A stretch of DNA of 64,000 bases from NCBI RefSeq assembly GCF_019203185.1, contig NZ_CP078093.1:744001-808000 (forward strand), read 5' to 3'. The position numbers and the translations under genes are program-made. Under the pieces are notes generated by a model. That model saw nothing but the letters and a program-made list of their open reading frames with translations, searched no databases and had not been told where the DNA came from. The DNA comes from Crassaminicella indica (GTDB lineage Bacteria > Bacillota > Clostridia > Peptostreptococcales > Thermotaleaceae). Shown here in pieces: positions 16,565 through 20,189 of this stretch; the stretch's first letter is position 1, and every line of letters begins with the position of its first letter.

Positions 16565-16590
16565 AAAGGTGGGAACTTCCCACCTTTTAT
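16563..16590. terminator. terminator between ribH and csoR (convergent)
   Basis: Stem AAAAGGTGGG / CCCACCTTTT with a 5-base loop; symmetrical, so usable from both sides. Confidence 0.88.
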
Positions 16591-16919
16591 TTAATCATTC
16601 TATCAATAGTTTTTAAAAATTCATCTACTACATCTTCATCTCCTGATTTAATTTTACTTACAATACAGGTATGCATATGACTTTCTAGCAATAATTTTGC
16701 GACGCCCTTCATAGCAGATTGTACTGCAGCTATCTGAATAAGGATATCATCACAATATACATTTCTTTCAATCATTCCTTTAATCCCTCTTACCTGTCCT
16801 TCAATTCTATTAAGTCTTTTGATTAATGCACCATTTACTTTTTCTGGTCGGTCTACATGTCTTTCATTTAGCTTTTTTTCACAATGCTTGTCTACTGGAT
16901 TTCTTTCAATTTTACCCAT
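16587..16919 (-). CDS. csoR: copper-sensing transcriptional repressor CsoR
   Basis: 110 aa DUF156-family repressor. The Cu(I) ligand pattern is intact: Cys56 (VYCDD), His81 and Cys85 (HMHTC), with the same 25- and 4-residue spacing as Bacillus CsoR. An extra about 25-residue basic N-terminal tail contains a Cys and two His. Copper binding releases DNA. It is third in the leftward copA-copZ-csoR operon, and a CsoR-type operator lies upstream of copA, so it probably autoregulates. Ribosome site AAGGAGGAGCG. Confidence 0.93.
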   Translation of the reverse strand: MGKIERNPVDKHCEKKLNERHVDRPEKVNGALIKRLNRIEGQVRGIKGMIERNVYCDDILIQIAAVQSAMKGVAKLLLESHMHTCIVSKIKSGDEDVVDEFLKTIDRMIK

Positions 16920-16972: not shown

Positions 16973-17188
16973 CTAAATAACTTTTATTTCTGCAACATCA
17001 TAGCCTGCTTCTTCTACAGCCTCTTTTAATGCTTTATCTTCAACCTCTTGCTTTAATTCTACCACAGCATTTTTTCCTTGTAAATCTACAGTTGCTGTCT
17101 TTACTCCCTCTAATTCCTCTAGTGCATTTTTCACATGATTTACGCAGTGCATACAGCTCATACCTTCGATTATCATTAGCTTTTTCAT
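16973..17188 (-). CDS. copZ: copper chaperone CopZ (heavy-metal-associated domain)
   Basis: 71 aa single HMA domain with the Cu(I) motif GMSCMHC at residues 9-15. It carries Cu(I) in the cytosol to the CopA ATPase. The ATG follows AGAGGAGGAAATAGA. It lies 19 bases downstream of copA on the same strand. Ordinary cysteines occupy both motif positions, in contrast to the second HMA domain of the neighbouring CopA. Confidence 0.95.
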   Translation of the reverse strand: MKKLMIIEGMSCMHCVNHVKNALEELEGVKTATVDLQGKNAVVELKQEVEDKALKEAVEEAGYDVAEIKVI

Positions 17189-17207: not shown

Positions 17208-19658
17208 TTATGGTTTAAATCTTTTTAATCTAAGTGCATTTGTAACAACAGATACAGAGCTTAATGACATAGCAGCTCCTGCAAACATTGGATTAAGCTT
17301 AGGACCTCCGAATGCATAAAACAATCCTGCTGCTAACGGAATTCCTAATGAATTATAAAAAAACGCCCAAAATAGATTTTGTTTTATATTTCTAATGGTA
17401 CTTTTACTCAACTTTATTGCAGTAACTACATCTAGCAAATCACTCTTCATCAATACAATATCTGCTGATTCTATGGCAACATCTGTGCCTGACCCTATAG
17501 CTATACCAATATCTGCTGAAGCTAATGCAGGTGCATCATTAATACCATCACCTACCATCGCTACAACTTTCCCTTCTTTTTGTAGCTTTTTTATATTTTC
17601 TGCTTTATGCTCTGGAAGCACTTCTGCAAGAACTCTATCTATACCCACTTGCTTTGCTATACTCTCTGCTGTTCTTTTATTGTCTCCTGTAATCATAACT
17701 ACCTCTATACCCATTTCATGAAGCTTCATAATAGCTTCTTTGCTGCTCTTCTTAACAATATCTGCTACAGCAATAATCCCTGCAAGCTCATTGTCTACTG
17801 CTATATACATAGGCGTTTTTCCTTCAGCTGCAAGTCTATTTGAAGCTTCTTCTAATATAGATAAATCTATACCTTTATCCTTCATTAACTTATTATTTCC
17901 CAATAATACATTTTTATTTTCTACTGTTACTTCTATTCCATGCCCGGGAATAGCATAAAAGCTTTCTACTTTTAATATTTCAATATTTTCTTTTTCTGCA
18001 CCTCTTACAATAGCCTCTCCTAAAGGATGTTCAGAACCCTTCTCCGCAGAAGCTGCGATTTGAAGCAGCTGATTTTTATCTATTTTTCCAGTAGTTATAA
18101 TATCTGTAATCTCTGGTCTTCCCTCTGTAATCGTTCCTGTTTTATCAAATACTATAGTCTGTATTTTATGTGCTCCTTCTAGAGCTTCTCCTCCCTTGAT
18201 TAAAACTCCATATTCTGCACCCTTTCCTGTTCCAACCATAATAGCTGTTGGTGTAGCAAGTCCTAATGCACATGGACAAGCAATCACCATCACAGCAATG
18301 AATATAGTTAAAGAAAATACTGGTGTAGCACCACTTATATACCAAATTAGTGCAGAAAGTAGCGCAATACCAAAAACTACAGGTACAAAATAAGCTGAAA
18401 CAATATCTGCCATTTTTGCAATCGGTGCTTTTGATCCTTGTGCTTCCTCTACCAATTTTATAATCTGAGCAAGGGCCGTATCACTTCCTACCTTTGTTGC
18501 TTTAAACATAATCGCTCCTTGCTTATTAATACTTCCTCCTACAACTCTATCTCCTATCCTCTTTTCTACAGGAATACTCTCTCCTGTAAGCATTGATTCA
18601 TCTACTGAAGTATGTCCTTCTACAACCTCTCCATCTACAGGGATCTTCATTCCCGGTTTTACAACAATCATATCCCCAACGTCTACTTCTTCTATTGGGA
18701 TTTCTATTTCTCTACCATTCTTCATTACAATAGCTGTCTTTGGTGCTAATCCCATCAATTTTTTTATGGCTTCAGATGTTTTTCCCTTGCTGACAGCTTC
18801 TAAGTATTTTCCTAATAAAATCAGAGTAATAATCACCCCTGCTGATTCAAAATACAAATCATGAGCATAGGAAACATCTCCAGTAAAAATTCTATAAGCT
18901 GCATAAAAACCATAAATAACCGCCGCTCCAGTTCCCATAGCTACTAAGGAATCCATAGTTGGACTTTTTCTAAAGATAGCACTAATTCCTTTAGTATAAA
19001 ACTTATTTCCTGCAAACAGTACAGGCAATACCAAAAGTATCTGCACCAACGCAAAGTTCAATGGATTTTTCATTGGATCTATGCTTTCTGGCAAGCTTAA
19101 TCCAATCATAGGTCCCATAGCAATATACAATAAGGGCACTGCAAATATGAAAGACAGTATAAATTTTTTCTTTAAAGTATACATTTCTTTTTCTTGAGTT
19201 TCTTTGTTTTTATCCTTCATATCCTTTTTTTCAATTTCAGCTGGAGTATAACCTGCTTTTTTTATTGCTCCCTTTATATCTGATATTCTCACCTTGCTCG
19301 CATCATAAACTACAACCGCCTTGTTTGTAGCAATATTTACATTTACAGACTTTATTCCATCTAATTTGTTGATTGCCCGATCAACAGCTCCTACACAAGC
19401 CGCTCAGGTCATTCCTTCTATTCCTATAATGATTTCCTTTGTATCTTCCTCATCTGTTGCTTCATATCCTGCTTTTTTTACAGCACTTTTTATATCCTCT
19501 AGCTGTATTTTTGTCTCATCGTATGTGACAACCAACTTTTCTGTAGCAAAGTTTACATTCGCATCTGTCACACCCTCTAGCTTTTTCACAGCTCTTTCAG
19601 CTGCTTTTGCACACGCTGCACAACTCATTCCCTCTATTTTAAGTATTTTTAACAACAT
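17208..19658 (-). CDS. copA: Cu+-exporting P1B-type ATPase CopA with an in-frame TGA at a metal-site Cys (candidate selenoprotein)
   Basis: 816 aa if the TGA at 19404-19406 is read through. HMA domain 1 has GMSC-AAC at residues 10-16. HMA domain 2 (about 78-145) has GMT-TGA-AAC at 82-88, where every normal homologue has Cys. Then follow the transmembrane core, TGES (about 358-361), the ion channel CPC (461-463), the phosphorylation site DKTGT (Asp505) and a [10 protein letters not shown] hinge. Reading frame and homology continue unbroken on both sides of the TGA, with no ribosome site for a restart. A 7-bp hairpin starts about 18 bases after the TGA, as for a bacterial SECIS. So residue 85 is probably selenocysteine; otherwise this is a nonsense allele leaving an 84 aa CopZ-like fragment. 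ATG at 19658 has AAGGAGGTGCGAG; a CsoR operator lies upstream. First gene of copA-copZ-csoR. Confidence 0.88.
19366..19406 (-). promoter_or_regulatory. candidate bacterial SECIS element in copA
   Basis: Minus strand: TGA (19406-19404), 24 bases, then loop CGGGCA closed by the perfect stem GTTGAT / ATCAAC (19368-19385), extended one further T-A pair outward. A G-containing loop 16-37 bases after the UGA is the published shape of bacterial SECIS elements. The loop sequence and spacing were read directly; function is inferred. Confidence 0.6.
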
Positions 19659-19674
19659 CTCGCACCTCCTTATA

Positions 19675-19694
19675 CTATACCCCCCTACGGTACA
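19675..19694 (-). promoter_or_regulatory. CsoR operator upstream of copA
   Basis: GTACCGTAGGGGGGTATAG on the minus strand closely resembles the pseudo-palindromic G/C-tract operator of CsoR repressors. It lies 17-36 bases before the copA start, between ribosome site and promoter region. Confidence 0.75.
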
Positions 19695-19871: not shown

Positions 19872-20189
19872 ATGTCTAGATGTGATGATTATATGAAGGA
19901 TTATGATAAGGATTACGGCAATGATTATGAATGTCCAATGTATCCTCAGATGCCTATGATGGGTGGTATGCCTTGTCCTCAAATGCCTATGATGGGCGGA
20001 ATGCCTTATCCTCAAATGCCCATGATGGGTGGTATGCCTTATCCTCAGATGCCTATGTGCCCTCCTATGATGGGAGAAGAAGACATGAAGGATTTATGCT
20101 GTGCAGAACACATGAATGAATATATGGCTTATATGTGCAAGGCTGAAGCTTGCAAAATACGCGCTATGCAATGTATGTATAAAAAATAA
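19872..20189 (+). CDS. Met/Pro-rich tandem-repeat protein
   Basis: 105 aa. An acidic, Tyr/Asp-rich head with several Cys is followed by three and a half copies of a 12-residue unit MPYPQMPMMGG (about residues 28-70), and then a tail with CC, CKAEACK and CMYKK. There are about 25 methionines and 8 cysteines. No signal peptide or membrane segment. The ribosome site is ACAAGGGGGAAATACA. It is divergent from copA, about 210 bases away. Met- and Cys-rich repeats can bind Cu(I), and the position suggests copper handling. A spore-coat protein of low complexity is the main alternative. Confidence 0.75.
   Translation: MSRCDDYMKDYDKDYGNDYECPMYPQMPMMGGMPCPQMPMMGGMPYPQMPMMGGMPYPQMPMCPPMMGEEDMKDLCCAEHMNEYMAYMCKAEACKIRAMQCMYKK

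Follow-up and report, generated by a model that had tools for sequence, protein, structure and literature searches.

A 64,000-nt stretch of the Crassaminicella indica genome (contig NZ_CP078093.1, positions 744,001 to 808,000; hereafter the window, in whose numbering coordinates are given) carries a copA gene, predicted to encode a Cu(I)-exporting ATPase, in which a single in-frame TGA is very probably decoded as selenocysteine (Sec). The features of the locus are listed in Table 1. The copA frame runs from an ATG at 19656-19658 to a stop codon at 17208-17210, and the TGA at codon 85 is the only internal stop among its 816 codons; frame and translation bear out the first-pass annotation, which had described a continuous 816-codon copA with this lone TGA. 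The product scored 641 bits against TIGR01511 (cut-off 397) and 679.5 bits against TIGR01525 (cut-off 346.25), its translation includes the CPC membrane site and the DKTGT phosphorylation site, and end-to-end matches with one TGA occur in relatives.

Table 1. Features of the copA locus of Crassaminicella indica, in window coordinates
Feature	Coordinates	Strand	Description
CsoR-operator-like box	19676-19692	minus	TACCGTAGGGGGGTATA; immediately 5' of the copA ribosome site
Shine-Dalgarno sequence of copA	19663-19670	minus	AGGAGGTG; kept in L010-L013
copA	17208-19658	minus	predicted P1B-type Cu(I)-exporting ATPase, 816 residues including Sec85 (stop codon counted)
HMA1 metal-binding domain	19458-19649	minus	GMSCAAC, all Cys; residues 4-67; CopZ/HMA models
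HMA2 metal-binding domain	19245-19427	minus	bears the predicted UxxC site; residues 78-138; TIGR00003
In-frame TGA	19404-19406	minus	predicted Sec85, first residue of the HMA2 UxxC; aligns with Cys (TGC/TGT) in Cys-type homologues
Candidate bSECIS hairpin	19367-19386	minus	TGTTGAT-CGGGCA-ATCAACA; 24 nt after TGA, 6-7 bp stem, 6-nt loop with GGG
copZ-like copper chaperone gene	16973-17188	minus	Cys-type, GMSCMHC; directly downstream of copA
csoR-like gene	16587-16919	minus	last gene of the putative copA-copZ-csoR operon; identified from its translation

CopA contains two N-terminal HMA domains, the first with the motif GMSCAAC and the second with GMT-U-AAC. The closest solved homologues of HMA2 are the HMA domains of ATP7B and Bacillus subtilis CopA. 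As the alignment with Cys-type homologues shows, the predicted Sec85 stands where the second cytoplasmic HMA domain otherwise has its first Cys, yielding a predicted U-x-x-C Cu(I) site, at the position to which the TGA had initially been assigned. The absence of a ribosome site for a restart at 19292, noted at the same stage, was also confirmed: the next in-frame start-like codon after the TGA, GTG 19290-19292, is not preceded by a suitably spaced Shine-Dalgarno sequence. In the C. indica genome, copA is the only match to an HMA-bearing CopA.

The first-pass annotation had proposed a search of the genome for selA, selB, selD and tRNA-Sec, and all four are present: selB (401.7 bits) with selA adjoining it, selD (398 bits), and a tRNA-SeC with the anticodon TCA. 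In the same genome, the reading frames of SelD and GrdA, two classic selenoproteins, are each interrupted by a single TGA where Sec is expected. Judging by this gene complement, the C. indica cell can insert selenocysteine.

Among 59 relatives, a single in-frame TGA at the first Cys of an HMA motif was found in each of the four genomes of the genus, in members of three more genera of the family (in G015, one of these, within a second CopA copy) and in other families, and the homologues that lack the TGA have Cys in that column. The sister genomes, suggested earlier as a check, share the same single TGA, and their copA frames are otherwise free of nonsense codons and frameshifts. When the pattern was searched for in 395 genomes of the order, 47 matches resulted, 34 of which are CopA genes by reading frame, distributed over 33 genomes; SelB scored above the cut-off in every one of these 33. 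In the same survey, the control pattern with TAA or TAG at the first HMA Cys gave 13 matches, none in CopA, and the CxxU control, in which the TGA takes the place of the second Cys, gave six matches, again none in CopA. A special role of the first HMA residue would fit these results, because Sec never occupies the second Cys position in the order surveyed. In a scan of named genomes, 44 of the 47 stretches recovered were HMA/CopA frames by translation, from Clostridia (Tepidibacter, Romboutsia, Paraclostridium, Clostridium, Caloranaerobacter, Maledivibacter, Anaeromonas and others) and from Actinomycetota (Candidatus Aquicultor). Outside the genus, the TGA recurs in other genera, families and orders and spans two phyla.

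For the sequence 3' of the TGA, the ratio of nonsynonymous to synonymous changes (pN/pS) was 0.13-0.17 for the core and 0.14-0.33 for HMA2, similar to or below that of HMA1. The downstream part of copA is under purifying selection; it is translated and needed. Two further genes were noted. One genome with a Cys/Cys CopA also encodes another CopA copy, on a long branch, that has a single HMA domain and Sec (L072, G015:C5:215500-219500), and a metagenome-assembled genome of Bacillota contains a very divergent Sec-CopA-like gene (L101, G398:C67) adjoining another P-type ATPase, of unsure position in the tree.

The TGA is followed by a candidate bacterial selenocysteine insertion sequence (bSECIS). 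The published bSECIS model specifies a loop of 3-9 nt with a G in the first two positions and a stem of 4-16 bp, located 16-37 nt from the UGA (PMC13188914), and the copA hairpin fits this geometry, with the loop CGGGCA, a stem of 6-7 bp and a distance of 24 nt, as the first-pass annotation had described it. The hairpin is encoded within the VDRAINK codons that follow Sec. Its 6-bp stem is kept in 15 of the 15 relatives with this hairpin type, as are its ATC and AAC codons, which are rare in these genes and account for 8% of the Ile codons and 18% of the Asn codons, respectively, in the copA of the window. A bSECIS-like hairpin at -2 kcal/mol or better follows 47 of 54 Sec HMAs; the Cys HMAs that belong to these genes have one in 17 of 53 cases, and those of genes with Cys only in 9 of 36. 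The rows of this comparison are related sequences, which makes its p-values too small. A strict scan without bulges did not recover the hairpin of GrdA itself and so misses real elements.

Hairpins of other lineages are unrelated to that of C. indica and include GAGAG-loop, GGG-loop and CGUGGAAA-loop types. In the lineage of L043-L045, an unusual bSECIS candidate, TCGAC-AGUUA-GUCGA, lies just 17 nt after the TGA and has a loop without GG. The Cys-type CopA L014 retains the peptide AADRAINK in HMA2, with the pairing broken (GCGGAT-CGTGCT-ATTAAC); this remnant resembles what a reversion from Sec to Cys would leave behind, as would be expected of a lost element.

Taken together, the machinery, conservation, controls and hairpin strongly support the proposed insertion of Sec at codon 85, and it is very likely that the gene encodes a full-length Cu(I)-exporting CopA in which UGA85 is decoded as Sec via SelB and tRNA-Sec under the direction of the hairpin. 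Several observations weigh against this interpretation. The bSECIS model asks for a minimum free energy of at most -7.5 kcal/mol. The single-sequence fold of the 47-nt region, at -9.9 kcal/mol, is ordinary (z -0.47), and this minimum-energy fold is a different, competing hairpin; the candidate hairpin alone reaches -5.1 kcal/mol. Among the 15 relatives that share its type, just one double-sided (compensatory) pair change was seen, U-A to C-G. The candidate bSECIS is convincing through comparison, not through energy. The tRNA-Sec gene was detected in 12 of 12 genomes with a TGA-containing CopA vs 36 of 47 Cys genomes (59 genomes, p about 0.1), a link that is suggestive only. Finally, the putative role of Sec85 in copper handling is deduced from its position.

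A fresh pseudogene would look much the same, with a lone stop in an otherwise intact frame. Nevertheless, a disabling nonsense mutation or a sequencing error is extremely improbable and was rejected given the conservation of the TGA and the selection on the gene: the stop occurs at the same codon, and is never TAA or TAG, in the four genomes of the genus and in dozens outside it, which excludes a sequencing error, the downstream part of copA is under purifying selection, and the promoter, operator-like box and ribosome site are conserved. Near-cognate tRNAs read through UGA in bacteria, and suppression or an altered genetic code could in principle place Trp or some other residue at the codon. 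This explanation has next to no likelihood given that Cys-type homologues have Cys in this column, SelB is present in all 33 genomes of the order with a TGA-containing CopA, and the hairpin specifically follows the TGA; a changed code was rejected on the Cys column together with the TGA codons of SelD and GrdA, which are used at their own Sec sites and fit Sec.

Alternatively, UGA might mostly act as a true stop, releasing an 84-residue HMA1 chaperone, with occasional read-through producing the pump. The truncated piece would be a complete HMA1, which CopZ models match at 66-72 bits, and a passage of PMC9548414 mentions frameshifting in Escherichia coli CopA. Such a two-product gene is unlikely here: the relatives with TGA in HMA1, about half of the total, would be left with only a very short leader, one gene has a TGA in both HMA domains, and a separate copZ follows copA. 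The many HMA1 cases led us to reject a chaperone as the shared purpose of the stop, and the truncated HMA1 may instead be a by-product when selenium is short. The remaining alternative accepts Sec and differs on its benefit, with selection mainly for redox protection, through ready reduction once oxidized, or for handling another soft metal such as Hg or Ag, not for faster copper handling. The HMA fold is present in MerP too, and we consider this possible, if doubtful, because the copA-copZ-csoR-like context, the CsoR-type box and the score against the Cu-ATPase subfamily favor copper.

Under selenocysteine decoding, SelB and tRNA-Sec would read the UGA at codon 85, guided by the hairpin downstream. 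The selenolate, deprotonated at the pH of the cell and more nucleophilic than a thiolate, would be the likely chemical advantage, and is the predicted first Cu(I)-capturing ligand. Sec85 might capture Cu(I) from CopZ or a small-thiol pool, or exchange it faster, and the captured ion would then be passed to the CPC site in the membrane. If selenium were scarce, translation would end with the 84-residue piece containing only HMA1, no pump would be made, and copper tolerance would be tied to the selenium supply. Selenoproteins are mostly redox enzymes; the Sec predicted here lies in the copper-trafficking site of a metal pump. If this prediction is correct, the copper resistance of these anaerobes would depend on selenium, and the natural Cys-to-Sec swaps in HMA1 or HMA2 amount to a ready experiment on each CxxC copper ligand. 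For annotation, the consequence is that gene callers would begin such genes inside HMA2 or label them broken.

Depending on the gene, Sec is located in HMA1, in HMA2, or in both. On a quickly built tree of the core from 73 genes, at least nine Cys/Sec changes are required, and 16 if position is counted; TGA genes are over-represented in this sample, and the change count cannot separate gain from loss. Because of these changes and the unrelated hairpins, the data suggest repeated gain (and loss) of Sec in CopA. We lean slightly towards a scenario in which Sec entered the HMA sites of CopA several times independently, with its own hairpin each time, in HMA1, HMA2 or both and without exception at the first Cys; selection for selenium would then have acted repeatedly on the first ligand, and selenium would control copper tolerance. 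A Tissierellia CopA gene (L152, a record of L079) contains, on the coding strand, a TGA in both HMA motifs, giving GMTUASC twice, and each TGA is followed by a nearly identical UCUUCUAGGGUAGAAGA hairpin; its product is a predicted double-selenocysteine pump.

The copA ribosome site includes AGGAGG at 19665-19670. A promoter-like TTGACA also precedes copA and is conserved in relatives; in L010-L013, it lies upstream of a matching CsoR-operator-like box. The last gene of the putative operon we take, from its sequence, to encode a csoR-like metal-sensing repressor. Divergently from copA, positions 19872-20189 of the plus strand encode a small protein that is rich in Met and Cys and has MYPQMPMMGGMP repeats; it could bind copper or belong to the spore coat. 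A similar protein adjoins copA in L013, from another genus, and none is encoded within 1.5 kb upstream of copA in L010-L012.

The use of Sec in a copper exporter had initially been described as not known to be characterized. This does not hold for the prediction itself, as E1-E2 metal ATPases with Sec in a UxxC motif are a published predicted selenoprotein family (PMC2398784, 2008; PMC9312934, 2022; PMC13188914, 2026), listed also in PMC5029168 (2016) with 25 and 32 in two count columns; it does hold for experiment, in that no biochemical or functional study of a Sec-containing E1-E2 metal ATPase was found in the literature searched. Like the CopA described here, the published proteins belong to the TIGR01525/COG2217 superfamily and have a U-x-x-C motif, one Sec and Cys homologues elsewhere. 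Their entries give the motif and counts only, with ABB15669.1 as a listed example, and the likeness is one of motif and family. The Sec-bearing HMA domain, double-Sec genes and hairpin diversity were not found in the entries of these four papers, and the predicted domain switching, double-Sec gene and hairpin diversity would be additions to the family.

Frameshifting in E. coli CopA, which yields an HMA1 chaperone, resembles the present case in that recoding occurs inside the N-terminal HMA region, but it differs in mechanism, and termination in the HMA1-Sec relatives would yield no chaperone. The families NF041115 (UxxU metal-binding (seleno)protein) and NF045683 (MerT/CopZ-like heavy-metal selenoprotein) are, by their names, HMA-chaperone-like and have Sec at metal motifs; unlike CopA, neither is a P-type ATPase, and NF041115 has UxxU instead of UxxC. 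The closest architectural counterpart is the Cys-type CopA with two HMA domains (TIGR01511; B. subtilis CopA, PDB 1p6t/2rml), which shares the order of HMA1, HMA2 and P1B core, the CPC site and an operon with copZ and csoR, whereas the C. indica gene is distinguished by the predicted Sec in place of the first HMA2 Cys and by the candidate hairpin in the VDRAINK codons.
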